Shown piece after piece: positions 415 through 27,883 of a stretch of DNA of 64,000 nucleotides. Where the stretch lies: positions 46,032,593-46,096,592 of the forward strand of contig OX419759.1 in assembly GCA_948567375.1 (NCBI GenBank), read 5' to 3'. This stretch comes from Lunularia cruciata (taxonomy: Eukaryota > Streptophyta > Marchantiopsida > Lunulariales > Lunulariaceae). The notes under the pieces were generated by a model. It had not been told where the DNA came from and searched no databases. It saw only the letters and a list, made by a program, of their open reading frames with translations. Within the stretch, counting starts at the first letter, position 1, and each line of letters begins with the position of its first letter. The translations under genes and the position numbers were made by a program.

Positions 415-2853
415 GCTATAGGTCAAGTACATTTAGGACATAACCATTGTCCCTGAGGAACCACCGTGAGGGGAGGAGTCATACATGTCATATGCCATCC
501 TCTCGAACAACTATCACACACTAACATAGTAGCAGCTCCACCAGAAGAGCCACATAACATACACCTCAAGCCTGCACGTACAAGTGCCAAGCTTGGGTCC
601 ATAGTACCATCAATGTTTGGGAGGTGGCATGGTGCACAATTGCGCACATGATCGTTCCAAACAACACCATCACGTCCTTCTAACACAAGGACTCCAGATG
701 GCAAAATCTCGTGCACTCTCAAGATAGTGCGGCCTGTAGAAACATCAAGTGTTGTCGATGCTGTCTGCTATAGATATACATAGTCACCTGGATGAAATTG
801 ACGGATCGAGGGTCTATAACCTCCTCCTCAAATGGTAGCATAGCGTAAAGTATCTCTATGTTGAGCAATCGCCAAGTTCTCGAAGGCCATCGGCATCACT
901 CTCCGAAAGATCTCTGCCCGCTGAGAACATGCGCTCATCCATACATCAGGGTCATCCAAGTCCAAAACTACAATGACATCTTGACAAATGGCTATAGGTG
1001 AATCTGGATCTTGTCCATAGAGTAGAAAGTTTGGAGAGAAGGATGCTAAGGAGGCTTGCCGGCTGAACCGATAGCCCATGGCCAACAAAGGTAATTGGAG
1101 ATCCCAATCTCCCAAGTGGCCTCTCTGCAAACCATACTTTTGCAATCCTCTCTTCACCGTCTGAACCACTCTCTCTGCTAAGCCATCTGCCTTAGGGTGA
1201 TCTCGGGATATAGTACAATGATCAATCAAAGCCTTATCACACAAGACCTGAAACTCCCCCAAGAACTCTGTACCCTGATCAGTCAAAACCTCAGTTGGTG
1301 CACCAAAATGACTAAGAACTCGATCCAGGAACGAGTAAGCTGTCCCTTCACTAGACTTGTCAGGAAGTGCCACCAACTCAATCCACTTGGAGAAGTGCTC
1401 CACCATCACCAAAACACACCAATGATGTCTCACAGTTAGCGGTAAAGGTCCATCAAAGTCCAAACTCCAACGGTAACCCAATCCCATGATAGGTAATGGG
1501 TGTAATTGTGGCGTAGGAGCATTGAATGATGCTCTAACTCGGTCACAAACCACACATCTGGCAACAAATTGCTGTACCTTGGTCTGCATATCGCGCCACC
1601 AATAATGACTCTGAAGTAAGCTATATGTATGCTTGACTCCAAAATGTCCTAGCTCCTCATGAGCATGATGGACCAACTGTGGTCTTTGTGATGGAAGTGG
1701 TACTACTCATACTCTAATATCCTCCCGTACATGCAAAAGGTGTCTACCCTCCAATCTGAACCGTCTGGCTTGCTGAAGAACATGGTCTCTCTCCTTGGCC
1801 CCAACTGTACCACCCACAACACTAGTGCGAAGATAGTCCATGACTAAGACATCATCATGAATGTCTTGCTGAACTGTACAAATATCTTCACTCTCTGGAT
1901 CTGTGACCTCAATAACTCCTCCTGTATGCGCTGAGAGAGATACCACCAAAGCCTCTTCAAATATACATAGAAAGGCCGATGCATGCCAACCTAGCACCAT
2001 CTCCTCATCTGTCTCACCATGCCAACGTGCTCCGGTCTGATCTTGCTGGTTGGGACATGGGTTTCTACTCAACCCATCTGCATCACGGTTCACCACTCTA
2101 GGTCTATGAACAATCGTGAAATCATACTCTTGTAAAATCAGAGCCCATCGTGCAAGCTTCCCTAAAAGCTTGTCGGACTCCATCAACCACTTTAGCGGCT
2201 GATGATCAATGATGAGAGTGAAGGGGTTCCCAAATAGGTAGCATCGGAAATGTGCTACTGCCCAAACTGCTGCCAAGCACTCTCACTCATATGAACTATA
2301 CTTTGCCTCCGCTGAATTGTTGGAGCGACTAGCATAGGCCACCACAAACTCCTTCTCCTCATCATCATGCTGGGTGAGCACCGCTCCAAGCCCCAACATA
2401 CTCCAATCAGTGTGAACCTGAAATGGTCGTCCCGCGATCGGTCTCCTCAAAATAGGAGCAGATGTCAACCTCTCCTTGAGCTCTACAAAAGCTCTCTCCT
2501 GCTCATCTTCCCAATGCCACTCCTGTGTAAGCTTGGTCAGCTTTGTCAAGGCCTTGGCAATGGCACTAAATCCTCTAACATAGCGACGATAGAAGTTTGC
2601 CAACCCAAGGAATGCTCGCACTCTGCTCACATCCGTAGGCCAAGGAATACATGCAATAGCCTCCACCTTGGTCTGCTGAACACCAAGTCCTCCGGGGTAG
2701 ATAGTGGGACCCAAATACTCAACCTACTCGTGGAAGAACCTACACTTCCCAGGATTTAGTTTGAGTCCATGAGATCTCAACCTCTCAAACACCTCCAACA
2801 ACTGTCTCTCATGCTCCTCCACAGTAGTGCTATAAACCAAAATGTCATCAATA
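415..2853 (-). mobile_element. Element B parts: end of RT, RNase H, integrase, PHD finger
   Basis: Read leftwards from 2,853, this piece holds the last part of reverse transcriptase, RNase H (HTDWSMLGLGAVL near 2,400-2,300), the HHCC zinc domain and DDE core of integrase (about 1,680-1,000), and the PHD finger (about 560-425; CMLC, CDSC, GWHMTC, LCPKC). It is broken. It continues on the other side of element A at 12,746. Confidence 0.85.
2850..2853. repeat. Target-site duplication of element A, left copy (AATA)
   Basis: AATA lies directly left of A and again directly right of it at 12,746-12,749. A's own RT region (about 9,484-9,490) serves as the uninterrupted site and has this 4-mer once, so the duplication was made by the insertion. 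Confidence 0.85.
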
Positions 2854-3302
2854 TGTCACGCCATTTGTAGTTCCGCATCTAGATGCTCGGACACTGGAGT
2901 TCCAATGATGGTAGTTAGAGTTATTCTAGCTATTTCTCAAAGACTACTTTCCCACGGTTAGATTTCGTGTTCGGGGTACTGACTTCACGGTGGGGCCCAC
3001 CGTCACTTTGCACCGTTTGCACCGTCGAGTGTGCCGTCAGCGGGACCGTTAGGGTTTCAGGGCTAGCTCGAGTCCAGGGGGTATAGTTTCAAAGTGAGCT
3101 CCAGAGAGCTCACTTCTCTGATGTTGAGCCTTCGAGTTCCTGGCTATGGTGGACAGAGGCCGGCGAGCGTCACCTGGATTCTCTATGCTTGAGTGGGTGT
3201 GGCTTGACTGTAATCAGTGCCCAGTTGGTGGCAGTTTATAGAGTGACAGATCAAGTACTGATCTGAGTTGAGTTGAGTTGAAAGTGTTAAGCAATCTGAT
3301 TA
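2854..3302 (+). repeat. A1 repeat (5' end of element A)
   Basis: This 449-bp terminal repeat pairs with A2 at 12,191-12,639 and is about 97% identical by eye with no length change. It starts at the true element tip (TGTCACGCC after the AATA duplication). A TATA-like GTTTATAGAG lies near 3,234, about 60 bp before its inner end. The next bases, CATCAGAG, match only part of the initiator-Met primer site (ATCAGAG), so the primer-binding site is uncertain. Confidence 0.9.
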
Positions 3303-3909
3303 CATCAGAGAAGTGAAGTCAGGGGGAAATCGGGTGCAGGAACGTTGAGTGTTGGTGGTATCTCCAAGCTCGGTGGATCGTGGTAGCTCGATTCAGGTTC
3401 TGTGTTTCCCTAGTGTGCAGAAGCTCGTGTAGTTGATGCAAATTTGGCAATTAGGCGGACGGTGTGCGGAAGCGTTGGCCAAATTTTGAGCAACGAAGGA
3501 GCAATTTTCAAGCAGTGTTGTGATTTTGAGCTCAGGAGGTGAAGGCAGGACCAATTTGCTGCGAGTTGGGCTCAGAAAGTGAAATTGAAGGTGGAGTTGG
3601 AAAGCTCTTCTCATGAAATTGTGATTTGGAAAAACCCGTTTTGTCAATTTGGCTCGAGTGGAAAGTTAGCGGGGGATTTGGCGGACATCCATCTTTAGGG
3701 TTTACGTCAGATTTTACGTCAGATTTACGTCACATTTTTGGGCCAGAATTGGAGGAGTTTCGCTGTTTGGCCAGATTTGGAGAAGTTTCGCCAATTTTGG
3801 AGGAGGTTCGAAGTGGCAACAAGAAAGGCCTCATTTGGCTGAATTTCGGCATTTCGAGGCTTCGAGGCATAGAGCTGTGGGCTATGAGAGGCTACGAAGG
3901 CCTAGAAGG

Positions 3910-3931
3910 GCCAGCAAGCCAGCTTGCTGGC
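3910..3931. other. Perfect hairpin in the leader of element A
   Basis: GCCAGCAAGC and GCTTGCTGGC pair over 10 bp with a two-base loop. B carries an equally perfect version at 26,092-26,113. Structured leader elements of retroelements often serve packaging or dimer formation; that role is only inferred here. Confidence 0.75.
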
Positions 3932-4000
3932 GTGAGGCTAGCTAGTTTAGTGTAGATCTTGGTCATTGGTTGGCAAAATCTGCCTTTCTTGCTAGATTGT

Positions 4001-4068
4001 GCGCAACAGGGTTTGACCCCTAGATCTCTTGTTCCTAGACTGGTGCCCTAGCCAACTGGTCCACCCTC
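4001..4068 (-). ncRNA. tRNA-like (SINE-like) segment antisense in the leader
   Basis: On the minus strand, TGGACCAGTTGG fits the pol III A box at all but one position. It is followed by GGCACCAGTCTAGGAAC and an arm TAGGG-GTCAAA-CCCT(G) in the place of the T arm and B box. B has the same piece on the plus strand at 25,953-26,020. It is therefore part of the family, not a private insertion. It is probably a fossil tRNA-derived SINE head; nothing shows that it is transcribed. Confidence 0.55.
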
Positions 4069-4567
4069 ACTTGTTGTCATAGTGACTGTGCCACTGTTAT
4101 CTATACACATGTAGCTTTGGCTAGGAGAGGCAGTTTGATCCCATTCTTGGTGATCCTGGTAGCTTAGGACTTAGATACGAACTACTCTTATGTCAAATGC
4201 CAAATGGTGGCAGAGTCAGTCCCGTGTTGTGTTATGAGATGGAGGGTTTTCGTTTAGATTTCTTGTGATTGGATCCCCTTCATTCTCTACTTCCTGTTTG
4301 TGCACCACGTTTGTGTGAGGTGCCTTGACTTTTGAGCGTTGGTGCTCTGGTGTGCTCTCGGTGGTGAGGCTGGAGTGATGACCAGTCAGACTACCTTTGT
4401 TTCTCTCCGGTGAGGCAAGAAGTGATGACCTGCAAACCGTGAGAGTGCGTGTTATGATGGCAGGTTACAGGTTGCCCTTCCCCTAGTGTAGTTATCTCGG
4501 TTAGAGTTACATTAGTGGGTGGTGTCTAGTTGGTGTTGGCACTTGGTGGGGCACTTGCAGTTGCGAC

Positions 4568-5725
4568 TTGCGGTTGCAGTTGGTGGTTCGGGTTTGCTGT
4601 TGCAGTTACGTGGTCACGACGGAGTTCTTTGGAGATTCCAGAGGAGTTAGCTCTGCAGTACGCAGTGGGTTTACTCGGAGTGGTGCTCGGTATCAGCCTG
4701 TATCTCAGGTCCCAGTGAGGGAGGAGATTGACTCTGAGTTGGAGTTTGACACAGGAGCTGATTCAGTTGAGAGTGCACTTGGTGTGTCCGCACCATTGTT
4801 GTGGGACATGGACGAGATTTATGGGGCCTCCAAAGGACCTAGGCGTTACTCTGGTACAGTGGGTACTATTGAGTTGGATGATTTCATCTAGGAGTTCGAT
4901 AGTTGGTGTGATCTGCAGCAAATGCGGAACCCGACTTTGTTCACACCCTTCATGGCATGGAAGGGGTTGTTTCAGCACTTGGAGGGTCCACCGATGGACG
5001 ACTACCATGAGTTCAAGAGAGCTCATTTGGAGGAGATTGAGTTATGGAGACAGTATTGGTCTCCACACTATGTCTCCATCACTTCAGGTTCGGTGGCCAG
5101 GAGTAGGTCGGCTGTACCTACGAGTTCTAGCTCGAGTAGTGTTGGTGGAGCTAGTGGAGGTGCACTAGCTGGAGATAGTGCTACTATGAGTGGAGGTACC
5201 GCTGCAGGAGGTGGTGTGGTACCGGGGTTTAACCCCATGGTGGAGTTCTTCCTATGTTTGAGGCAGAACTACCAGGGAGTGCGGACTGACAAGCTGAGGA
5301 GCTTGCAGGAGTTCCAGCGGAAGGCTGGAGAGAGCCTACGCGAGGCATATACTCGCATGAGGCGGCTGATCAGTTTCACTCAGGGAGTTACTGAGGCCCA
5401 GGCAGTCCAATTTTGGTATGGGATACTGGACAGGGAGTTGCGACGTAGAGTTCGTGATGCTACGTTGTTGCAGGCTACTTCGCCCACTTTGGCAGTAGTC
5501 TTTGGTTTGGCTAAGCGTATTGAGCTCAACATGGTGGAAGAGAGAGTGGTGACAGCTGGATTTGGTAGAGAGACCTCATCCACGGTTGTGACTTCTTCTA
5601 GAGTGCAGCAAAGTGCACCACACCTAGTTGGTTTTCGAGGACAGGGTGGACAACCCAGATCCTATGGAGCGAGTGGAGGGCCTAGTGGAGTTAGACCCTT
5701 ACCCTCATTTTTGGGTCAGTAGCAG
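4568..5725 (+). mobile_element. Element A part: gag
   Basis: This region codes for a gag protein. The capsid-like part, about 5,230-5,560, has the plant Ty3/gypsy pattern: an aromatic stretch MVEFFLCLRQNY, then LRSLQEFQRKAGESLREAYTR and a helix-rich tail. It would form the virus-like particle. The same protein is present in B at about 25,280-24,300 on the minus strand. Recognition rests on position and general gag pattern. Confidence 0.75.
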
Positions 5726-5740
5726 CCAGTGAGTGGTGGT

Positions 5741-5890
5741 GTTGCTTGTTGGACTTGTGGTGGACCTCACTATAGGAGAGAGTGTACTCAGGGCAGCGGA
5801 CCTGATACCTCTGGTGCATCACAGCCAGCACAGAGGCAGTGTGAGCACTGCCATAGATTTGGTCATACTAGTGACCGGTGTTTTGACCTA
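5741..5890 (+). mobile_element. Element A part: two zinc knuckles
   Basis: Two Cys/His knuckles follow gag. The first, CWTCGGPHYRREC, has C-x2-C-x3-H-x4-C spacing, one residue shorter than canonical. The second, CEHCHRFGHTSDRC, is the canonical C-x2-C-x4-H-x4-C. Gag knuckles bind the element's RNA. After them comes a basic Gly/Arg-rich stretch (about 5,950-6,000), also typical of RNA-binding tails. Confidence 0.85.
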
Positions 5891-6739
5891 CACCCGGAGT
5901 TACGGAGTGGTAGGGCTGCTATGACAGGTAGTAGAGGAGCTCCAGTTCATGGAGGACGAGGTGGTAGAGGTGGTGGTAGAGGATCTACACCTAGTAGGGG
6001 TGCAGTACCTGCCCTTACTTCTGACACAACTATGGCTACTCGGATTGAGCAGTTGGAGCAGAGATTGGCTAGTATGGCTATTGCTCAGAGGAGATCAGAT
6101 TCGGGTGCTGAGGCTTCCACCTCATATGCTAGTGATAGAGATGCTTTGGACTTCATGTGCGGAGCAGCACAGGTGGATGCATCTGCAGCAGTGACTAGGA
6201 GTGCAGTACGTGCTCCAGAGCCTAGAGGAGCATCAGTGGAGTTGGACCCACAGAGAGGAGAGGTTGGGAGACAGGTCAGACTTCCCCAGTCTTTCACGCT
6301 ATCTGAGGCATTGCAGACGACATCCATGGTTCCTAGACGTCCCAGTGCAGGTGTGGTAGGTGGTGATGGAGTACCTGATGGAGTACCTGCTAGTCAGCCA
6401 CCTGCTACTACACAGATTGAGTCTAGCATGATGTTGGGGGCGGCTCAGCTGATTATGCGGCATCCTTTATTTTCAGCCAGTGACATGTTTACATTGGGAG
6501 TTGACCCAGCCCCAGTGTTCCGGTTGGCTGCCACGTTGTGTGAGAGTAGGGATGGTGCAGTTCCTACTACTAGAGCAGAGGTGGTTGGTAGTGGAGCTGA
6601 CTTGGTTGAGGAGCATGGGATCCGTTCAGCGACCAGTGGTTTATGGCAGGCAGCAGCGGCTAGACTGGAGGAGTTGCCAGCTAGACCGGCCTTTGAGAGA
6701 GCGCGGTTTACACCTGGTGTTGTCCTATTGGATAACCAG

Positions 6740-7110
6740 AGGGGGATCTTTCGTTTGGTAGGACCTTCAGGGAAGGTCTATACACCACAGAGAGTCTTGT
6801 TAGACTCTGGTGCGCAGCCCCTTATGTTGGGGAAGGCTGCAGTTGTTGGTCTGGAGTTACGGAAGACCGATGTGGAGAGGTGTCCATTTCAGATCCTGAC
6901 ATCTCTAGGTGGTGGTTCAACACAGTACATCACACGTGGGGAGCTTGTTGTCCAGGTTCAGCCTGGTCATCCGACTGATAGCTCAGTGGTGAGAGCTCAG
7001 GCTATTGCGACGATAGCTGAGTCATATGATGTGCTAGTTGGGGGAGCAGTGTTATACCCTATGGGTTTCAGTATTGACTATTGGGAGGAGACAGCCTCTT
7101 ATAGACCTGG
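6740..7110 (+). mobile_element. Element A part: aspartic protease
   Basis: The retropepsin active site is seen as VLLDSGAQPLMLG near 6,794-6,832, with the catalytic Asp-Ser-Gly. A downstream hydrophobic-Gly segment (YDVLVGGAVLYPMGFSIDY, about 7,025-7,080) fits the second conserved part of the fold. It would cut the gag-pol polyprotein. The methyltransferase lies directly downstream. Confidence 0.8.
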
Positions 7111-7519
7111 TTGGCAGTCTGGTGAGGGACGGGTATGTCGCCTACCAGTACGTTTCAGTAGTGGCAGTCTTGGCTCACTACAGTCCGGGACCATGGCAGC
7201 ATCAATTTTGGCTTTCAGCGGTGCAGTTACTTGGCCTGGTGACTTGTTGGAGGGGAACGCCCATGCAGAGGATACTCCAGTACCAGAGGAGATCACTCGG
7301 CTATGAAGTACGAGTGGGATTGTTCCATCCACCTTGGATGTTCCATTGTGGAGTTCAGAGGAGGCATTGCAACAGCATGCAGATCAGTTGGTGCAGCAGG
7401 CTTGGAGTGGAGCCTTCGTACCATCAGGGGATGAGTGTGAGGATGAGCCTCCAGAGGCGATTGCTTTGACACCTCTGGATACCACACTCATTGCTTGGCA
7501 GTATCCAGTAGAGGGGATA

Positions 7520-8470
7520 TACCTATTGGAGTTGTTTGGTGGGATCAGCACCGGACTAGCTGCGGTGTTACAGGCGGGTATCCGAGTACAGAGGTACTTG
7601 TATGTAGAGAGAGATGAGACTGCTAGGCGAGTCTCTCTACATCATGTGGCACACTTGGCCTATCGGTATCCGGAGTTATTACCGATGTCAGCAGTCAGAG
7701 GTTACCAGAAGGCCTTACCCGGAGACATTTCCTTACTGGGGGCGCATGACCTAGAGAGACATGGGCCTATTCACTTGGTGATTTCTGGATGGCCATGTCA
7801 GGGACATACACGTGCGGGCCGCGGTTTGGGTCTTCAGGATCCTCGTTCTGGTGTGTTTTGGGAGATGTTACGGATATTACAACATCTCTAGGTTCATCAG
7901 TCTGTTTCTCTAGCTTACCTTTTGGAGAACGTTCCATTGATGGGTGATTCTCGCACTAGAGTGGTGGCGAGTACACATCAGGTCCATTCATGGATGGGAC
8001 CTGCTGTATTGTTAGATGCAGCCAGAGTGGGATCACGGGCTCATCGTCTTCGTCTTTGGTGGACGAACCTTTTACCCAGAGAGGTTCTACAGCGTAGTTA
8101 TGATGGGATTCAGCGACTTGACCACATCCTTGTTGATGATATCTTGGATGTTGGGCGTCAGTCTCAGACAGTGGTAGTGGCTGATAGGTCACATATGGCA
8201 GTGGTGAACCTAGTTGGACAGCCTAGAGCTGCATTTCCCACACTCATGAGTTTCCCAGGCTCTCATGCTTTTCGAGAGGGAGGACCTGGACTTGTTTGGG
8301 ACTCACAGTTACAGCAGTTGGTGGAGCCCAATGCTGATGAGAGAGAGCGGGCGATGGGTTTTTGCACTGGTATTACCGCTGTTCCAGCAGTGTCAGAGGC
8401 ATCCAGGCGTCAGGTGTTAGGTCAGGCTATGGACCTGAACTGTTTGACCTGGATTGTGAGCCTTGGTTTG
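7520..8470 (+). mobile_element. Element A part: DNMT3-like cytosine-5 DNA methyltransferase domain
   Basis: Conserved C5-methyltransferase motifs occur in order. Motif I (AdoMet binding) is LLELFGGISTGL, 7,523-7,558. Motif II is YLYVERDETAR. Motif IV, with the catalytic cysteine, is SGWPCQGHTRAGRGLG, about 7,784-7,830. Motif VI is LLENVPL, about 7,919-7,939. Motif VIII is AHRLRLWWTNL, close to HRARYFWGNL of DNMT3. The end, ERAMGF...RRQVLGQAM (to about 8,432), resembles DNMT3 motifs IX-X. It would methylate cytosine in DNA using S-adenosylmethionine. It lies between protease and RT and fits the same polyprotein. B carries the same domain (about 22,530-21,530, minus). The element is broken, so present activity is not claimed. 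Confidence 0.9.
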
Positions 8471-8984
8471 GCAGAGCAGCGTAGGATGCACTTGATAGGC
8501 ATCACCACTCGGACACTTGTGAGCCCTGTGCCTATCAAGACGATTCAGGCACATGCTGGGGGCGATGGACCGAGTGGACATGGTATTCTTGGGACACATC
8601 CAGTAGCTACTAGGGAGAGTGGTCTACTTGGAGTCCATCCAGGTGAGCGTGGGCTACTTGGATTACACCCTTGGTCCACATGGGATGCAGCCAGAGGACG
8701 TATGGAGCTTGCAGCTAGAGTGGAGGGAGTTTTTCACACAGAGGTTGGGACCTCTAGTGGTCAAGAGCATGACACCATTGCTCCCAAGGGCCCAGTATAG
8801 CAGCCAGTCAGTACGTCTTCCACTCCTACTACAGTTACAGAGGATACTTGGGAGCCAGATCTTGGACCCAAGCTTACTGGAGAGGAAAGACGGAGGGTTT
8901 GGAGGTTCTTGAGGAGTCACACGAGTTGTTTTGCCTTCAGTATGAAGGATTTGGGTGCTCTGAAGGGACCTGGTATACGGATTG

Positions 8985-9800
8985 AGCTGACTAGCGACAC
9001 ACCAGTTTTCCGACGTCCTTATCGATATAGTGATATGGAGAGGACATTGATTCAGAGCCGGAGTAGTGACCTTTTTGAGGCTGGTTTGGTGGAGATTTCA
9101 CATGGAGAGTATGCATCAGCGACAGTGATGCCAGCCAAGAAGGATATGCATGGCAACTATACAGATAGGCGGATGTGTGGAGATTACCGTCCTATCAACC
9201 GACAGACCAGGGCTGATCGGTATGCCATGCCTACACCGGAGGAGATTTTTGATGCGATTGGGCATGCAAAGGTCTTCAGTACTTTGGATCTTCAAGCGGG
9301 ATATCATCAGTTGCCGATCAGGGAGGAGGATAAGTCCAAGACAACATTTTGGGCTATTGATCCTCATGGCAAGGATGTGTTATATCAGTGGAGGTTCTTA
9401 CCATTTGGGTTGAAGAATGCTCCTGCTGAGTTCCAGAGGGTCATGGATAGGATCCTAGCTGGACTAGATTTTGCTCGATGCTATATTGATGACATTTTGG
9501 TGTATAGCACTACTGTGGAGGAGCATGAGAGACAGTTGTTGGAGGTGTTTGAGAGGTTGAGATCTCATGGACTCAAATTACATCCTGGGAAGTGTAGGTT
9601 CTTCCATGAGCAGGTTGAGTATTTGGGTCACACTATCTACCCCGGAGGACTTGGTGTTCAGCAAACCAAGGTAGAGGCTATTGCACGTATTCCTCGGCCT
9701 ACGGATGTGAGCAGAGTGCGAGCATTCCTTGGGTTGGCGAACTTCTATCGCCGCTATGTTAGAGGATTTAGTGCCATTGCCAAGGCCTTGACGAAGCTGA
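8985..9800 (+). mobile_element. Element A part: reverse transcriptase
   Basis: This is a typical Ty3/gypsy RT. It shows MCGDYRPINRQT (palm motif), FSTLDLQAGYHQLPI (catalytic Asp), FGLKNAPAEFQRVMD and the catalytic box YIDDILVYS (about 9,484-9,510), followed by FLGLANFYRRYVRGF of the thumb/connection. It copies the element RNA into DNA. It follows the methyltransferase directly. Confidence 0.95.
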
Positions 9801-9889
9801 CCAAGCTTACACAGGAGTGGTGTTGGGGAGATGAGCAAGAGAGAGCTTTTGTAGAGCTCAAGGAGAGGTTGACATCTGCTCCTATTTTG

Positions 9890-10290
9890 AGGAGACCGAT
9901 CGCGGGACGACCATTTCAGGTTCACACTGATTGGAGTATGTTGGGGCTTGGAGCGGTGCTCACCCAACATGATGATGAGGAGAAGGAGTTTGTGGTGGCC
10001 TATGCTAGTCGCTCCAACAATTCAGCGGAGGCGAAGTATAGTTCATATGAGGGAGAGTGCTTGGTAGCAGTTTGGGCAGTAGCACATTTCCGATGTTACC
10101 TATTTGGTAACCCCTTCACTCTCATCACTGATCATCAGCCGCTGAAGTGGTTGATGGAGTCCGACAAGCTTTCAGGGAAGCTTGCACGATAGGCTCTGAT
10201 TTTACAGGAGTATGATTTCACGGTTGTTCACAGACCTGGAGTGGTGAACCGTGATGCAGATGGGTTGAGTAGAAACCCATGTCCCAACCA
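9890..10290 (+). mobile_element. Element A part: RNase H
   Basis: RNase H of the Ty3/gypsy type follows RT: HTDWSMLGLGAVLTQ (catalytic Asp), FVVAYASRSNNSAEAKYSSYEGE (catalytic Glu), ITDHQPLKWLM (Asp) and a tail with NRDADGLSR. It removes the RNA strand during reverse transcription. Confidence 0.9.
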
Positions 10291-10639
10291 GCAGGATCAG
10301 ACCGGAGCAGGTTGGCATGGTGAGACAGATGAGGAGATGGTGCCAGGTTGGCATGCATCAGCCTTTTTGTGTATATTTGCAGAGACATTGGTGGTATCTC
10401 TCTCAGTGCATACAGGAGGAGTTATTGAGGTCACAGATCCAGAGAGTGAAGATATTGGTACAGTTCAGCGAGACATTCATGATGATATCTTAGTGATGGA
10501 CTATCTTTGCACTGGTGTTGTGGGTGGCACAGTTGGGGCCAAGGAGAGAGACCGTGTTCTTCAGCGAGCCAGACGGTTCAGATTGGAGGGTAGACACCTT
10601 TTGCGTGTATGGGAGGATGGTAGAGTGCGAGTAGTACCA

Positions 10640-11360
10640 CTTCCATCACAGAGACCACAGTTGGTCCGTCATGCTCATGAGGAGCTAGGACATTTTGGAG
10701 TAAAGCATACATATAGCTTACTCCAGAGTCATTATTGGTGGCGCGGTATGCAGACCAAGGTACAACAGTTTGTTGCCAGATGTGTGGTTTGTGACCGAGT
10801 TAGAGCATCATTCAATGCTCCTACGCCACAGTTACACCCATTACCTATCATGGGATTGGGTTACCGTTGGAGTTTGGACTTCGCCGGACCTTTACCGCTG
10901 ACTGTGAGACATCATTGGTATGTTTTGGTGATGGTGGAGCACTTCTCCAAGTGGATTGAGTTGGTGGCACTTCCTGACAAGTCTAGTGAAGGGACAGCTT
11001 ACTCGTTCCTGGATCGAGTTCTTAGTCATTTTGGTGCACCAGCTGAGGTTTTGACTGATCAGGGTACAGAGTTCTTGGGAGAGTTTCAGGTCTTGTGTGA
11101 CAAGGCTTTGATTGATCATCGTACTACATCCCAAGATCACCCTGAGGCAGATGGCTTAGCAGAGAGAGTGGTTCAGACGGTGAAGAGAGGATTGCGAAAG
11201 TATGGTTTGCAGAGAGGCCACTTGGGAGATTGGGATCTCCAGTTACCTTGGTTGGCCATGGGCTATCGGTTCAGCCGGCAAGCCTCCTTAGCATCCTTCT
11301 CTCCATACTTTCTACTCTATGGACGAGATCCAGATTTACCTGCAGCCATTCGTCGAGATG
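10640..11360 (+). mobile_element. Element A part: DDE integrase
   Basis: The N-terminal HHCC zinc domain reads HEELGHFGVKHTYSLL...CVVCDR (about 10,675-10,800). The catalytic core shows WSLDFAGPLPL (first Asp), VLTDQGTEFLG (second Asp) and EADGLAERVVQTVK (Glu). It is a DDE integrase, not a tyrosine recombinase, which matters because the element ends look like split direct repeats. A C-terminal segment VLVLEGRDGVVWKDHVRNCAPCHLP (given here in part) leads into the PHD finger. Confidence 0.92.
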
Positions 11361-11769
11361 CTACTGTAGTTTTGGACTTGGATGACCCTGATGTATGGAT
11401 GAGCGCATGTTCTCAGCGGGCAGAGATCTTTCGGAGAGTGATGCCGATGGCTTTCGAGAACTTGGCGATTGCTCAGCATAGAGATACTTTACGCTATGCT
11501 ACCATTCGAGGAGGAGGTTATAGACCCTCGATCCGTCGATTTCATCCAGGCGACTATGTATATCTGTAGCAGATAGCACCAACGACACTTGATGTTTCTA
11601 CAGGCCGCACTATCTTGAGAGTGCGCGAGGTTTTGCCATCTGGAGTCCTTGTGTTAGAAGGACGTGATGGTGTTGTTTGGAAGGATCATGTGCGCAATTG
11701 TGCGCCATGCCACCTTCCAAACATTGATGGTACTATGGACCCAACCTTGGCACTTGTATGTGCAGGCTT

Positions 11770-11914
11770 GAGGTGTATGTTATGTGGCTCTTCTGGTGGA
11801 GCTGCTACTATGTTAGTGTGTGATAGCTGTTCGAGAGGATGGCATATGGCATGTATGACTCCTCCCCTCATGGTGGTTCCTCAGGGACAGTGGTTATGTC
11901 CTAGATGTACTTGA
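11770..11914 (+). mobile_element. Element A part: C-terminal PHD finger
   Basis: A C4HC3 zinc finger closes the polyprotein: CMLC, then CDSC, GWHMAC, and WLCPRC. The spacing is that of a PHD finger. PHD fingers commonly read histone H3 tails, methylated or not at lysine 4. It sits where chromoviruses carry a chromodomain, directly after integrase, so a role in choosing chromatin targets is a reasonable inference. B keeps the same finger (about 560-425, minus). Confidence 0.9.
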
Positions 11915-12065
11915 CCTATAGCTAGTTCATTCTTTATATGGTATAGATTGCAGACAGGCGACTAACAATGGGGCTCCATAGCACCCGGCCTCCTGATCTT
12001 TGCCCATTAGAGGGTATACCATATACTTAGAGTAGATGGCTATCTGGAGTTAGAGGGACCTAACC

Positions 12066-12082
12066 GCCAGCTAGGAGGGCGA
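12066..12082 (+). other. Polypurine tract of element A
   Basis: AGGAGGGCGA lies directly before the B1 segment; in B the same place reads AGGGGGGCGA. Its position suggests that plus-strand DNA synthesis starts at TTGTGGCAC or TGTGGCAC, so the LTR made in reverse transcription would be B1+A2, not the repeat found at the genomic tip. Confidence 0.6.
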
Positions 12083-12188
12083 TTGTGGCACTTTAGAGTC
12101 TATGTATGACTTATGTGTGAGTTGTGCTTTTATAGTGTATGATGTTGACAGCGATGTATGTTGTGTAGCGATGTATATACGCACGACA
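12083..12188 (+). repeat. B1 segment of element A
   Basis: This 106-bp segment starts TTGTGGCAC and ends CGCACGACA. It is identical by eye to B2 at 12,640-12,745. It is followed by GC and then A2, giving the palindrome GACAGCTGTC at 12,185-12,194. It contains GTATATAC near its end. Confidence 0.9.
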
Positions 12189-12190
12189 GC

Positions 12191-12639
12191 TGTCACGCCA
12201 TTTGTAGTTCCACATCTAGATGCTTGGACACTGGAGTTCCAGTGATGGTAGTTAGAGTTATTCTAGCTGTTTCTCAGGGACTACTTTCCGACAGTTAGAT
12301 TTCGTGTTCGGGGTACTGACTTCACGGTGGGGCCCACCGTCACTTTGCACCATTTGCACCGTCGAGTGTGCCGTCAGCGGGACCGTTAGGGTTTCAAGGC
12401 TAGCTCGAGTCCAGGGGGTATAGTTTCAAAGTGAGCTCCAGAGAGCTCACTTCTCTGATGTTGAGCCTTCGATTTCCTGGCTATGGTGGACAGAGGCCGG
12501 CGAGCGTCACCTGGATTCTCTATGCTTGAGTGGGTGTGACTTGACTGTAATCAATGCCCAGTTGGTGGCAGTTTATAGAGTGATAGATCAAGTACTGATC
12601 TGAGTTGAGTTGAGTTGAAAGTGTTAAGCAATCTGATTA
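12191..12639 (+). repeat. A2 repeat of element A
   Basis: 449 bp, same length as A1, about 97% identical. It runs from TGTCACGCC to CTGATTA. Unlike A1 it is bordered on both sides by the 106-bp B segment. Confidence 0.9.
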
Positions 12640-12745
12640 TTGTGGCACTTTAGAGTCTATGTATGACTTATGTGTGAGTTGTGCTTTTATAGTGTATGAT
12701 GTTGACAGCGATGTATGTTGTGTAGCGATGTATATACGCACGACA
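12640..12745 (+). repeat. B2 segment: right tip of element A
   Basis: A second, identical copy of the 106-bp segment lies between A2 and the AATA duplication at 12,746. The join GATTA/TTGTGGCAC has the form of a head-to-tail LTR-LTR junction. It ends CGACA at the true right tip. Confidence 0.88.
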
Positions 12746-13709
12746 AATATAGCACCGAGCAAAATCCAATCCAGCTAGGATCCTATCCATGACCCTCTAG
12801 AACTCAACAAGAGCGTTCTTCAACCCAAATGGTAAGAACTTCCACTGATATAACACATCCTTGCCGTGAGGATCAATAGCCCAAAATGCTATCTTGGACT
12901 TATCTTCCTCCCTGATCGGCAACTGATGATATCCCGCTTGAAGATCCAAAGTACTGAAGACCTTTGCATGCCCAATCGCATCAAAAATCTCCTCTGGTGT
13001 AGGCATGGCATACCGATCAGCCCTGGTCTGTCAGTTGATAGGACGGTAATCTCCACACATCCACCTATCTGTATAGTTTCCATGCATATCCTTCTTGGCT
13101 GGCATCACTGTCGCTGATGCATACTCTCCATGTGAAATCTCCACCAAACCAGCCTCAAAAAGGTCACTACTCCGGCTCTGAATCAATGTCCTCTCCATAT
13201 CACTATATCGATAAGGACGTCGGAAAACTGGTGTGTCGCTAGTCAGCTCAATCCGTATACCAGGTCCCTTTAGAGCACCCAAATCCTTCATATTGAAGGC
13301 AAAACAACTCATGTGACTCCTCATGAGCCTCCAAACCCTCCGTCTTTCCTCTCCAGTAAGCTTGGGTCCAAGATCTGGCTCCCAAGTATGCAATAGTGTG
13401 TGCAATAGTGTCATGCTCCCGACCACTAAAGGTCCCAACCTCTATGTGAAAAACTCCCTCCACTCTGGTTGCAAGCTCCACACGTCCTCTAGCTGCATCC
13501 CATGTGGACCAAGGGTGTAATCCAAGTAGCCCACGCTCACCTGGATGGACTCCAAGTAGACCACTCTCCCTAGTAGCTACTGGATGTGTTCCAAGAATAC
13601 CATGTCCACTCGGTCCATCACCCCCAACATGTGCCTGAATCGTCTCGATAGGCACAGGGCTCACTAGTGTCCGAGTGGTGATGCCTATCAAGTGCATCCT
13701 ACGCTGCTC
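12746..13709 (-). mobile_element. Element B part: reverse transcriptase (N-terminal half) and linker
   Basis: This is the continuation of B to the right of A. It encodes the first half of RT on the minus strand (LTSDTPVFRRPYRYSDMER, FSTLDLQAGYHQL) and the linker back to the methyltransferase end. It is broken and is interrupted at 13,709 by E1. Confidence 0.88.
13706..13709. repeat. Target-site duplication of E1, left copy (GCTC)
   Basis: GCTC flanks E1 at 13,706-13,709 and 21,518-21,521. The matching uninterrupted site in element A (about 8,466-8,481, opposite strand) has it once, confirming a 4-bp duplication. Confidence 0.88.
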
Positions 13710-14388
13710 TGTAACACCCATTTGTGCATGTGTGTGGTATTGTGATATTTAGCTTGGTATTACAAGTACTTAAGAGATATTATTTATATAGAGATAAAGG
13801 ATGGTTCTATATTAGTCATGGTTAGCTAAAGTTAGTCATAGCTAAGATAGATGGGACCTTACTTTAGAGGAAGTAGAAAAGATGAGCACCACTATTTTGG
13901 ATTTTAGTGTGTTGACTTGGTATTATTCCTAGGTGTTTGGCTTTGGGGAAAGAGTTGAGAACTCTTGGGCCCGCAAGCCTTTTTGTTTTGGATTCTTCTT
14001 TAGTCCAAGGATAGCCCATGTGAAGGAATCCTTGCTTTAGTGGTTGGGTCAAGATAAGGGGAATATGCCCATGTGAATGGATATTCCTTTCTACTTTTTG
14101 ACTTTACTTGACTTTTAGTCTAGTAACTTGAGTTACTACGGTAATTAGTAACTTTGGTACGTAACTATTTCACAAGTATATAAACAAGGAGTGAGGAGGT
14201 ACTCATCATCCTTTCATTTGCAACTATCTCTCTCTCATTGAGTTCTCTAGTGAGCAATGTCTTGAGTCTTGGAGTGTTAGCCTTGGAGGAGTATGATGGA
14301 GTTGGGGTTCCTTGCCTTCTTAGTCCATGGTGCGCTACCATAATAGCCATCAGAGGTTCATCCTGAGTGAGAGACAGGCCGGCTCACA
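13710..14388 (+). repeat. E1 5' LTR
   Basis: 679 bp, from TGTAACACCC to GGCTCACA. A TATA box, GTATATAAACAAGG, lies at about 14,177-14,190, with transcription likely starting some 30 bp later. It has a 13-bp gap relative to the 692-bp solo LTRs at 26,564 and 54,858. Confidence 0.93.
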
Positions 14389-14392
14389 TTTT

Positions 14393-14410
14393 TGGTTCCG
14401 TTGCCGGGAC
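14393..14410 (+). other. E1 primer-binding site
   Basis: TGGTTCCGTTGCCGGGAC lies 4 bases after the 5' LTR. It resembles TGGCGCCGTTGCCGGGGA, the tRNA-Asp complement typical of Tat/Athila elements, with a few differences. Confidence 0.7.
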
Positions 14411-15224
14411 CTCTCTAGAAGGCAAGATAATGTTCCGCGTCCAATTCTACATTAGGCAGAAGGAGGCTATGAGAGCTCACTTGGAGAGAACATTAGGAGA
14501 GGAGAGGGCTGAACTTATGTTAGATAACCAAGATCCATTTGTATACCCTGTAGTTCATTATGATGTCTTTGAGGTGATTTTGTACATCTTGTACACATGA
14601 GAGGAATTGGAGAGATTGTGTGAGGTGGATTGCAGATTTTGGGGATTAAGGTGATTTTGGGCAAAATCTCAAGTTTGAGATCTGGATTTGAGATTTCTAC
14701 ACATGATAGCTTGGGTTATCTTTCAGTTAGCACACTTGAAATTATTGAGAGAGCTTCTATGCGCACTGGGCTAGAATTTTTGAAAGTTGATAGGGTAAAG
14801 TGCTCCCGCAACTGCATGCTCTCTGGAAAATTGTACAGAGTCTGCCATTTCTTCAATTTTTAGTGAATTGTCCTGAAAATTTCCAAGAAAATTCAGTGCA
14901 TTTTATCCTACCTGGTGCCACAAAAATTAGAGAGAGATCATTTTTGCGCAGTGTGTTATGAGTTTTTGAAGTGAGGGGGGTGGTTTTCAGACCAAATCTG
15001 AAATATGGGTGCTGAATAGAAAGGTGTCTAGGCCAAATGGCTCGATGAAAAGATCTAAAATTTTGCAGGGAGGGACGCCCTAGAGTTGTGATCAAGTGTG
15101 GAAAATTTCAGAGGACTGTGACATATTCATTGGGAGATTTGAGTGACATTGTGAGGAAGGGTCAATTCTGCAGAGTGGAGATCTCATGCATGAGAAGTTT
15201 GAGATCAACAAAAAGCATGTTTGA
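14411..15224 (+). mobile_element. E1 leader / possible first part of the extra upstream ORF
   Basis: This region lies between the primer site and the zinc-knuckle ORF. A short open stretch from about 14,430 to 14,600 (FRVQFYIRQKEAMRAHLER, rich in charged residues) looks protein-coding and may belong to the same upstream protein, possibly through splicing as suggested for related elements. No known domain was recognised. Confidence 0.4.
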
Positions 15225-15722
15225 GTGTTTAGATTCATCTTGGGGAACATGGAGGGTCATCAAGAGTGGAAATTGAGATTATGCAAGGTTCCCCAAGGGT
15301 TTGAGGTGATTGTAGGGGTGGATTTGAGGAAAAGAGAGTTTACAATAGAATTTGAAGAGAGTGTTGAGAGGATCCAAAAACCTACACCACTTGGAGGAAA
15401 GAGTGAGTCTAAGTGCTTTCTATGTGGAGAGAAGGGACATAAGGCAAGTTCATGTCCATTGACCTTTGAGAGCAAGAGATTGAGGGAAAGGAGAGGCTTA
15501 CTTGACTTGGGTTTGCATGTTGGACCTTCTTCACCAAGATTGGGAGGGAGAAGATCTAAGACCAAGGAGTTGTGTGAGGTTTGTGGAGTTGAAGGACTTC
15601 CAAAAGGACATGAGTGTAGTGGAGTAAAAGCACTTTTGGAAACTTTGGTGAAGGATCTTGGAGAGAGTCTTAGTACAGCTACAGAAATACTACCACCTTC
15701 ATCAGCTAGTTCTCAAGATTAG
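15225..15722 (+). CDS. E1 upstream ORF with zinc knuckle (extra protein before gag)
   Basis: This 165-residue ORF precedes gag. It carries a canonical knuckle CFLCGEKGHKASSCP (about residues 64-78) and a second Cys/His cluster CEVCGVEGLPKGHEC (about residues 117-131). The N-terminal third (WKLRLCKVPQGFEVIVGVDL) is unassigned. Position and type recall the extra ORF1 upstream of gag in Ogre-type Tat elements. The zinc knuckles suggest nucleic-acid binding. The start shown is the first ATG of the open frame; the true start could lie further upstream. It ends about 240 bases before gag-pol, in a different frame. Confidence 0.6.
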   Translation: MFRFILGNMEGHQEWKLRLCKVPQGFEVIVGVDLRKREFTIEFEESVERIQKPTPLGGKSESKCFLCGEKGHKASSCPLTFESKRLRERRGLLDLGLHVGPSSPRLGGRRSKTKELCEVCGVEGLPKGHECSGVKALLETLVKDLGESLSTATEILPPSSASSQD

Positions 15723-15963
15723 TGATGGAGATAATCTTTCAACTTATGGATAAACTATCCATGAGAGTTAGATTAATATGCACTCTAGGATTTGATGTTG
15801 CTATAGAAATCTTGGAGCAACCTGAACCTTTTGTGTTCCCTAGAGTGGATTATTCTCAGATGGTGTTAGTCATGTATATACTCTATTAGTAATAGAGTGA
15901 GAGAAAAGAAAAGAGGAAAAAAAAATAAAATTTGAGAGAAAAGAAAGATAGTGAGGGGTTAAG

Positions 15964-18900
15964 ATGGGGAAACTTCCGGTTTTCTTTGGCAAGGATGGAG
16001 AAGATGTGGAGGCCTTTGTGAGAGACTTCAAGAGAGCTTGCATAGGAAACAATGAGAGGAGGAAGAATGAGTGGGCCTCATTATTACCAGATTTCTTTGA
16101 GGATGCAGCACTTACATGGTATGAGTCAGAATACCAAAAGAGAGAGAGGAGAGAGGGGGAAGAGGAGTCTTGGGAGACTTTGACTTCAGCACTCATTGAG
16201 AACTTTCTTCCTGATGAGAGTTATGAGAGATTGATGAGTGAGGTTACATTTCTCAAGCAAGGAGATGGAGAGAAAGTGAGGGTCTATGTGGAAAGAGTGG
16301 AAAAGTTGGAGTCCAGATTTCGCATAGTGTTGAGGAAGGGTGGGGATGATGTGGAGACTACAATGATTGGCATAGGGGCCATGCTCACCAAGAATTTTGT
16401 GGGAGGATTGAGACCACAAATTAGAAGCAAGGTGAGATATGAGAAACCTTCTTCCAAGGTTGAAGCTATCAAGATTGCAATTCGTATGGAGGAGAGTTTG
16501 GAAGGGGATGAGAGTGATTTGGTGGTGAAGGAGGTTGTGCATCCTCCTCAAGGCTACAAGTATGGTGGAACTTCTGATACTTTGGTGACAAGGGTTGCAC
16601 CACAAGTAGTAGTTGCTCCAGTTCTTGCACCTCCACCAAAAGATCCACTCCAAACCATCACAGAACAACTTGCGGATCTCAAGATCAATGTGGTGCAACT
16701 ATGGGAGAAGAGAGAGGTGGATCAGAATGTAGGGAGAGGACCTAGGAGTTATGGAAACAATCCATATAGAGGAGGCCAACCAGCCAACAATTTCAATGAT
16801 AGAAATTGTTTTGGTTGTGGAGGAAGAGGCCATATCCAAAGGAATTGCCCAAATTCCACTTACCATGGAGGAAGGGGTTATGAGGGAGCCAATAGAGGGA
16901 AAGAGGGAGGTAGTGAAACCCAAGTGGCTCCTAATCCCAACAAAGGTAAAGGGATAGCATCCATAGATGTGGTTGAGAGCAAGTATGAGAAGGGAGAGTG
17001 CTCAAACTCCAAGGGTCCTAATTTGGAGCTTTTGGCACAAGAGAAGAAGAGAGCTCGTTTTGCAGAGGATGTTCACTCTTCTCAAGGATTTACTTCAAGC
17101 AAGGATACTCCTATGTCTACTAGGAGCACTCGCACCTCAACACCATCAACAACAAAGACTCCAAGGAAGAAGTTGGGGATGGAGGACTTCTTGATCTCAA
17201 AGCAACAATGGAACTACAATGTGTTGGAGGATGTTGGTAGTCACAAGGCTAACATCACAGTGGGCCAATTAATTGCTTTGAACCCTACCTTGAGAAAGGA
17301 GCTTAGAGGTGGTTTGAGTTCTACAAGGAGCAAAAAGAAGAAGAAGGCAAAAGTTCCAGTATCAATGGGGGTGGTGGATGCCAAGCCAGCACCATGGGAG
17401 GCTTGTGAATATGCCTCCAAGATTGATGTGAGAGTGAATGGTCACAACATCAAGGATGCATTGGTTGATGGAGGATCAGCAGTGAATGCCATGTCAGAAA
17501 GGTTGATGAAGAAGTTGGGTATGATACCCTCAAGACCTTCAACATTTGTGGTGAGCATGGCAAACAAGCAACAAGTTCGACCAGTAGGGGTGATGGATAA
17601 GGTGGTAGTTTCAGTTATGGGAGTTCAAAATCTCATGACTTTCCAAGTCTTGAAGGATTCAAGCTATGACTTACTTCTTGGGAGGCCATGGTTGAGAGCA
17701 GCACGCACAACTGATCGATGGCACAAAGGGTACTTGAGGATTGGGCCATCAAACCATAGAGTCACTGTTCCTGTGACTAACACCACCAACACTTCACATT
17801 CAGATACCCCATCTTCTAATTATTGGGAATCAGATTCTGAAGAAGGAGCTTCAGGTGTGGACACAAGCATGGAAGAGGAGACTTCCACGGAGGAAGATGA
17901 ATCTGAATCTGATTCAGATGTGTATCCCTTGTGTGCTATGGATTTTGCACCTAAGCCAGAGGTTTTGAAGGACCCAGATAAATCACCATTGACACTTGAG
18001 GAGGTAGAGAGAAGGTTATCTACCCTCAAGTATGGCCCAAATGTTACCAAGGAGGAGAAGGTGAGATTTGAGGAGATTTTCCGCAAGTTCATCCATGTGT
18101 TTGCTTTTAGTTACAAGGATTTGAAGGAAGTCACCTTGGAGGAGCACAAGATAGAGGTGGAGTCACATGCAAGACCAATCCGCCAAAAGCAACGTCGCAT
18201 TAGCCCACCAATATCTTTGGTTGTGAAGGAGGAGATTGATAAGCTCAAGGAGGCTGGATTTATCTTTGAGGTGGAGAATTCAGAATGGGTGTCTCCAATT
18301 GTCATTGTGAAGAAAAAGAATGGCAAGCTTCGGGTATGTGTGGATTACAAGAAGCTTAATGCTGTTACCAAGAAGGACTACTACCCATTGCCATTCATTG
18401 ATGAGATCTTGGAGGAGGTTGCAGGTCATGAGAGGTACAGTTTTGGAGATGGTTATAGTGGATATAACCAAATAAAGATTGCACCAGAGCATCAACAACT
18501 CACCACATTCACCACACCTTGGGGAACTTACGCTTTCAAGGTCATGCCTTTTGGGCTTTGCAATGCTCCAGCCACATTCCAACGGTTCATGAACAAGGTA
18601 TTTGAACCTTTCATTGGGAAATTTGTGAGAGATTTTATTGATGACTTTTGTGTCTATGGGAGCAAGGAGGAGCACTTTGAGCACCTAATCAAAGTCTTGC
18701 AACGCTTGGATGAGGCAAATGCATCACTCAACCCAGAGAAGTGCATTTTTGGATGTGAAGAAGGTCTACTTTTGGGGCACATCATCTCCAAGGATGGAAT
18801 AGCAGTTGATCCTAAGAAGGTGAGGAAAATCTCAGACCTTCCATTCCCTTCAAGCTTGACAAAGTTACGCCAATTCTTGGGAATGGTTGGGTACTATAGG

Positions 18901-20790: not shown

Positions 20791-20838
20791 AGAGACCTTC
20801 ACTTTGAGGACAAAGTGAAAACTTAGTCCGGGGGTAAA
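20791..20838 (+). other. E1 tail and polypurine tract
   Basis: A short tail after gag-pol ends in a purine-rich GTCCGGGGGTAAA directly before the 3' LTR, the expected plus-strand primer. Confidence 0.6.
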
Positions 20839-21517
20839 TGTAACACCCATTTGTGCATGTGTGTGGTATTGTGATATTTAGCTTGGTATTACAAGTACTT
20901 AAGAGATATTATTTATATAGAGATAAAGGATGGTTCTATATTAGTCATGGTTAGCTAAAGTTAGTCATAGCTAAGATAGATGGGACCTTACTTTAGAGGA
21001 AGTAGAAAAGATGAGCACCACTATTTTGGATTTTAGTGTGTTGACTTGGTATTATTCCTAGGTGTTTGGCTTTGGGGAAAGAGTTGAGAACTCTTGGGCC
21101 CGCAAGCCTTTTTGTTTTGGATTCTTCTTTAGTCCAAGGATAGCCCATGTGAAGGAATCCTTGCTTTAGTGGTTGGGTCAAGATAAGGGGAATATGCCCA
21201 TGTGAATGGATATTCCTTTCTACTTTTTGACTTTACTTGACTTTTAGTCTAGTAACTTGAGTTACTACGGTAATTAGTAACTTTGGTACGTAACTATTTC
21301 ACAAGTATATAAACAAGGAGTGAGGAGGTACTCATCATCCTTTCATTTGCAACTATCTCTCTCTCATTGAGTTCTCTAGTGAGCAATGTCTTGAGTCTTG
21401 GAGTGTTAGCCTTGGAGGAGTATGATGGAGTTGGGGTTCCTTGCCTTCTTAGTCCATGGTGCGCTACCATAATAGCCATCAGAGGTTCATCCTGAGTGAG
21501 AGACAGGCCGGCTCACA
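20839..21517 (+). repeat. E1 3' LTR
   Basis: 679 bp, apparently identical to the 5' LTR, followed by the GCTC duplication. Confidence 0.93.
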
Positions 21518-27434: not shown

Positions 27435-27883
27435 TAATCAGATTGCTTAACATTCTCAACTCAACTCAACTCAGATCAATACTTGATCTGTCACTCTATA
27501 AACTGCCAACAACTGGGCACTGATTACAGTCAAGCCACACCCACTCAAGCATAGAGAATCCAAGTGACGCTTGCCGGCCTCTGTCCACCATAGCCAAGAA
27601 CTCGAAGGCTCAACATCAGAGAAGTGAGCTCTTTGGAGCTCACTTCAAAACTATACCCTCTGGACTCGAGCTAGCACTAAAACCCTAACGGTCCCACTGA
27701 CGGCACACTCGACGGTGCAAATAGTGCAAAGTGACAGTAGGCTCCACCGTGAAGTCAGTACCCCAAACACAAAATCTAACCGTTTGAAAGTAGTCTCTGA
27801 GAAACTACTAGAATAGCTCTAACTACTATCACTGGAACTCCAGTGTCCAAGCATCTAGATGCGGAACTACAAATGGCGTGACA
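27435..27883 (-). repeat. Element B 5' terminal repeat (A1 type)
   Basis: This 449-bp repeat matches 2,854-3,302 and 12,191-12,639 without a change in length. It starts TGTCACGCC, directly against element D sequence at 27,884, and ends CTGATTA before the leader (next bases CATCAGAG). It has no B-type segment after it, exactly as in A. A TATA-like TTTATAGAG lies near its inner end and is conserved in all three copies. Confidence 0.85.

Follow-up and report, generated by a model that had tools for sequence, protein, structure and literature searches.

Apparently circularly permuted insertion ends in a methyltransferase-bearing Ty3/gypsy family of Lunularia cruciata

How does a retrotransposon that encodes a DDE integrase come to lie in the chromosome between the split direct repeats that are treated as a mark of tyrosine recombinase (YR) elements? 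This question is raised by an element at positions 2854–12745 of a 64,000-nucleotide stretch of the Lunularia cruciata genome (assembly GCA_948567375.1, contig OX419759.1, positions 46,032,593 to 46,096,592), here called the window. The layout proposed for it by the initial annotation was borne out position for position: a 449-bp repeat (A1) is followed by the interior, a 106-bp repeat (B1), the dinucleotide GC, a second 449-bp repeat (A2) and a second 106-bp repeat (B2), and the whole is bounded by 4-bp duplications, AATA (Table 1). A1 and A2 are 96.9% identical, and B1 and B2 are 100% identical. The element sits within an older family member that lies in inverted orientation; therefore, the empty site could be read within the window, where the homologous interior is continuous with a single AATA (the arms meet at 9483–9487). 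The outer copy shows the layout of the inner element with its own duplication: TATT precedes its A1 (27435–27883, minus strand), and at its 3′ end, just beyond the window, the order tail-B-GC-A-B is followed by TATT.

The permuted ends were confirmed across the family. A scan of the genome (565.8 Mb, 74 contigs) located 2130 occurrences of the A/leader junction with at most one mismatch, and the reversed A/leader pattern gave none genome-wide under the identical search. Both ends were fetched for the first 40 of 100 places listed from these 2130 junctions, the search pattern taking in the first 8 nt of the predicted primer site. The 3′ A2-B2 end was readable in 31 of the 40 copies. When the ends were tabulated, 30 of these 31 showed an exact 4-bp duplication at the start of A1 and the end of B2, copy 5 being the only readable copy that lacked it. 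B1 was seen 5′ of A2 in 29 of the 31; copy 31 has a deletion there, and the stretch of copy 32 begins inside A2. Among the nine remaining copies, six had no 3′ end in the fetched stretch, two ran off the stretch and one was copy 17. A further 20 copies were fetched on the 3′ side only, and 12 of them yielded the joint; copy 54 lacks B2, its A2 being interrupted by other sequence as judged by eye. Ty3/gypsy elements typically make short target duplications of 4–6 bp, and the 4-bp duplication fits this trait. The order reverse transcriptase, RNase H and DDE integrase is likewise that of Ty3/gypsy. The initial annotation's pairing of a DDE integrase with a 4-bp duplication thus holds, both in the domain scan and across the copies. 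Equal long terminal repeats (LTRs), which an integrated Ty3/gypsy element should carry at its two ends, were found in 0 of 40 sampled copies, and in none of the 40 did B precede A1. Ordinary B+A LTRs at both ends of most copies, the outcome that the initial annotation had named as refuting its reading, were thus not what the sample showed.

Three observations accompany this survey. Copy 17 (L042) reads A-interior-B, is flanked on each side by AATG and lacks A2-B2; it may be an insertion of a one-junction molecule or a product of later recombination between B1 and B2. Beside copy 22 (L052, about 1108–1839 in element orientation) lies a diverged relative with an A about 75% identical and the order tail-B-A-B, which suggests that the layout predates the present family. 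Finally, older B ends differ mostly by C-to-T or G-to-A changes at CG sites (by eye), as methylated DNA would.

The predicted LTR of the complementary DNA (cDNA) can be defined from both of its sides. The 14 nt directly after A1 pair exactly with A257–270, and a TATA box lies at A229; the controls, 300 mononucleotide shuffles (mean 6.7) and 192 interior windows, gave at most 11 pairs. The 14-nt site was present in 39 of the 40 sampled copies, a count in which only the last 6 nt are informative because the first 8 nt belonged to the pattern by which the sample was chosen. The arrangement appears to be that of Tf1-type self-priming, with a predicted RNA start. A transfer RNA (tRNA) primer was considered and rejected, since no TGG follows A1 and the initiator tRNA (tRNA-iMet) fits only in part (by eye), against 14 of 14 positions for the self-primer. 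Minus-strand DNA would accordingly be expected to start exactly at the end of A, and a purine-rich tract adjoins B1 in the sampled copies. With the self-primer at the end of A and the purine tract at B1, ordinary reverse transcription should therefore yield LTRs of 557 bp in the order B-GC-A, which supports the earlier proposal of a B+A LTR. If the cDNA LTR is B-GC-A, the A2/B2 border is where two cDNA ends meet.

As a whole, we consider it probable that the family is inserted through self-primed cDNA, an end-joined two-LTR molecule, a one-sided cut in a palindrome and permuted insertion. The RNA would start within A1 at about A257 and prime itself, and standard reverse transcription would give a linear cDNA with 557-bp B-GC-A LTRs. 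The right end of this cDNA (A) and its left end (B) would then be joined by end joining rather than by copying, giving a two-LTR molecule, presumably a circle; the joining enzyme and the order of steps are likewise presumptive. The palindrome GACA-GC-TGTC in the left LTR would next be cut once by the element's own DDE integrase. The cut, staggered so that each strand is broken after CA, would leave a pair of CA-3′ ends that carry a 2-nt overhang, and both processed ends would be inserted 4 bp apart. The integrated copy would be the circular permutation A-interior-B-GC-A/B; it would keep the promoter in A1 and a complete B-GC-A at the 3′ side, so that the LTR could be rebuilt in each round. The GC of the palindrome is missing at the chromosome borders of integrated copies. 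There is precedent for the cutting step in two reports, both in vitro: prototype foamy virus (PFV) integrase cuts a palindromic LTR-LTR junction with loss of 2 nt (PMC1180852), and human immunodeficiency virus type 1 integrase cuts its own palindromic junction (PMC1905944). The insertion ends with their duplications, the primer pairing, the variants of the joint and the absence of a mirror form from the sample can be read directly from the genome sequence.

The joint itself was measured in 44 cases, comprising 31 and 12 from sampled copies and one from the diverged older relative beside copy 22. The length offset was 0 in 39 of the 44, and of the five deviant joints four showed offsets of −1, +1, −3 and +5, the last through a retained CATCA with which the primer site begins, while the fifth contained filler and had lost 33 nt of B. 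The copied B1-A2 border was less variable, with a 2-nt spacer in 43 of 44. In three of the six genome places that match an exact B-GC-A-leader pattern, roughly 90–170 nt of leader sequence stand between A2 and B2, and in one leader-bearing joint the change-over falls inside a short stretch common to both sides. Such variants have the look of DNA ends that were joined rather than of a border that was copied. The two A repeats of one copy resembled each other more than they did those of other copies, as did the two B repeats (0 of 5000 permutations for either, n = 25), and no alignment column tells B1 from B2.

The six exact places were also inspected as candidates for ordinary LTRs. The pattern allowed no mismatches, so copies with a mutated palindrome are uncounted, and the 40-copy sample stands in for a genome-wide count of 5′ ends. 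All six are preceded by the interior tail (with B1); therefore, they are 3′ ends or tandems, and their candidacy as ordinary 5′ LTRs was rejected. After A2, leader and then B2 follow at L091, L093 and L095; an inverted interior begins 16 nt past A2 at L089; the element is left about 50 nt after A2 at L099; and at L097/L098 A2 runs on into leader, with interior again 8 kb on. The last pair, in which B-GC-A leads into a second interior, resembles a tandem of two elements with one common A. The predicted 557-bp B-GC-A form was thus not found integrated as an ordinary 5′ LTR in the 40 copies or at the six places.

Opening a two-LTR circle at the B/A border, as the initial annotation had proposed, matches the integrated form, but the joined molecule contains two identical palindromes and should give two forms, and only one is seen; therefore, the plain circle model needs an added rule. 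The mirror form, A-B-GC-A-interior-B, occurred in 0 of 40 sampled copies and at 0 of the six exact places. This form also contains the A/leader junction, so the sample could have shown it. Lacking a 3′ A, it presumably could not replicate, and dead copies would still be expected if it were made. Cutting thus seems confined to the left palindrome, which lies 106 bp from the joint, the other lying 449 bp away; some factor presumably restricts the cut to the left LTR.

Several points weigh against this mechanism. The circle model does not account for why the left palindrome is always chosen, which is its main gap and burdens an integration-first explanation equally. No circle, cDNA or RNA end has been observed. 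If the joints arose by end joining, the share that has the standard length (39 of 44) is high. The copied tail/B1 border lies at 0 in 39 of 46 cases and is off by 1–2 nt in seven, and because this copied border also shifts, the 1-nt joint offsets may be later mutations. When only transversions are counted, the B1/B2 signal disappears (4279 of 5000), while the A comparison still holds. In addition, only 23 of the 40 copies have a primer that pairs with all 14 nt of the site in the same copy, within a sample chosen by a pattern containing the first 8 nt of that site.

Among the alternatives, the one that survives best reverses the order of events, with the integrase cutting the left-LTR palindrome of linear cDNA and inserting the CA ends, after which host repair joins the free A and B without any circle. 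It predicts identical ends, and joints that vary by filler, trimming and leader sequence just as under the circle model, but it requires the integrase to act on a linear molecule at an internal site, 106 bp in, and it entails a double-strand break at each insertion, with the one-sidedness explained no better; we regard this order as unlikely. Templated copying of the PAT kind, in which the RNA spans A2 and B2, the border is copied and reverse transcription directly yields A-interior-B-A-B, has the predominance of standard A2/B2 lengths in its favor and is how the identical layout is explained for YR elements (PMC6681497). On this explanation, leader sequence in the joint and a retained CATCA are unexpected; a primer site that borders A exactly, a purine tract that borders B exactly and the lack of any column diagnostic of B1 or B2 also weigh against it, and we judge it quite improbable. 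In favor of a PAT-like circle inserted by a tyrosine recombinase acting in trans stand the split direct repeats, a trait characteristic of YR elements; the 4-bp duplication and the missing border GC suit a DDE integrase instead, no tyrosine recombinase domain was found in the ten open reading frames (ORFs) scanned, and the chance of this route seems very slight. That ordinary B+A elements were rearranged after insertion, or that the assembly is at fault, is scarcely credible: no supporting point was found, the exact duplications at permuted ends recur at independent sites, and the neighboring ordinary gypsy element in the window was assembled with two equal LTRs. This last element, at about 13710–21517, is nested in the outer copy and has one ORF of 1608 aa; its LTRs of at least 677 bp are identical and GCTC is duplicated on both sides, and it served as a control.

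Table 1. Features of the permuted element in the window (window positions)
Feature	Position	Strand	Basis
Target duplication, 5′ copy, AATA	2850–2853	.	Sequence and empty site in homologous interior
A1, 449 bp, starts TGTC; TATA box at 3082	2854–3302	+	Promoter, R and U5 placed here by the model
Predicted self-primer, A257–270; expected RNA 5′ end	3110–3123	+	Sequence only
Predicted primer binding site, 14 nt, fully complementary to the self-primer	3303–3316	+	Pairing versus controls
Probable gag (with zinc knuckles) and protease, in two ORFs of 266 and 525 aa	4922–7306	+	By eye; without Pfam match
C5 DNA methyltransferase, split into two ORFs in this copy	7334–8800	+	PF00145; homologs of second piece carry PF00145
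Reverse transcriptase and RNase H	8909–10192	+	Domain scan of ORFs
DDE integrase and zinc-binding domain; second D to E, 34 residues	10241–11569	+	
PHD finger, in a frame different from the integrase ORF in this copy	11738–11914	+	PF00628
Purine-rich tract directly 5′ of B1, presumed plus-strand primer	12073–12082	+	Also in sampled copies
B1, 106 bp	12083–12188	+	Repeat comparison
Palindrome GACA-GC-TGTC at B1/A2 border, presumed integrase cutting site	12185–12194	.	
GC spacer between B1 and A2	12189–12190		
A2, 449 bp	12191–12639	+	Repeat comparison
A2/B2 joint of two cDNA ends (model reading)	12639–12640	.	
B2, 106 bp, terminal GACA	12640–12745	+	Repeat comparison
Target duplication, 3′ copy, AATA	12746–12749	.	

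The coding region of the window copy contains frame breaks. The pol of the element encloses a DNA methyltransferase, and a PHD finger follows its integrase; homologs occur in liverworts, Sphagnum and green algae. REM1 of Chlamydomonas is another gypsy element with a PHD finger. Among 7997 candidates scored, 362 integrase homologs were found at E ≤ 0.001, of which 120 were listed, and the named ones among the matches listed include sequences from Calypogeia, Riccia, Marchantia, Sphagnum, Klebsormidium, Closterium and Tetrabaena. Usually 35 residues separate the second D from the E, as in the ordinary gypsy element of the window; the spacing was 34 residues in all 78 homologs with a readable motif among the 120 listed. 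The second methyltransferase piece gave 240 homologs (120 listed), including Calypogeia, Riccia, Sphagnum and Marchantia, and in Riccia sorocarpa the integrase and methyltransferase matches are numbered consecutively (R1sor_014310 and R1sor_014311). The Klebsormidium nitens integrases among the homologs include P0015, which is 52% identical and carries a PHD finger; KnitGypsy-Dnmt3, discussed below, is a published element of that species. No relatives were found in the viral contigs searched.

The joining of cDNA ends followed by insertion is usually thought a dead end for related viruses. In this lineage each chromosomal A2/B2 border looks like the record of one joining event; therefore, the question can be addressed in genome sequence and then by experiment. 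We lean, by a little, toward the proposal that integration of end-joined two-LTR cDNA, cut on one side at a palindrome within the LTR by a DDE integrase of unusual D-34-E spacing, is the normal and obligatory route in an abundant lineage and not a dead end. The split-repeat layout is also seen here to accompany a DDE integrase in a large family. Such elements may, we suspect, be missed or misfiled by programs that seek equal LTRs at both ends.

Permuted gypsy integration had no account in the literature searched, most subscription papers lying outside it, and the available parts of PMC9033089 and PMC12477816 contain nothing on it. That literature likewise gave no description of the duplication-flanked insertion ends, the self-primer, the variants of the joint or the one-sided cutting. 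The layout itself is already published for a methyltransferase-bearing gypsy element, and the initial annotation's statement that no Ty3/gypsy family with such ends had been described does not stand: in KnitGypsy-Dnmt3 of K. nitens (de Mendoza et al., 2018), the repeats are arranged in DIRS-like fashion with domains typical of Gypsy (Fig. 4 legend, PMC5890265). By its published description, that element shares with ours a Gypsy pol enclosing a DNA methyltransferase and A-B-A-B repeats. It differs in that the available part of PMC5890265 does not describe its ends, duplication, primer or joint, and the main text there contains neither "circular" nor "target site". The layout A1 ... B1-A2-B2 is also that of the YR elements PAT, Ngaro and VIPER (PMC6681497), whereas the present element has a DDE integrase, a 4-bp duplication, a predicted self-primer and a purine tract, and no YR was found. 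With regard to priming, Tf1 is a self-priming element. An RNA 5′ end complementary to an LTR-adjacent site, predicted here, would be shared with Tf1/sushi and plant Tcn1, but in the part of PMC6317226 available these are listed as ordinary LTR elements, with no mention of permuted ends. For the cutting step, a likeness can be drawn to PFV integrase on two-LTR circles, for which PMC1180852 describes a palindrome, 2 nt between the CAs and one reaction that gives two processed ends; here, in contrast, the palindrome is internal to the LTR and the chromosomal copy has a permuted order.

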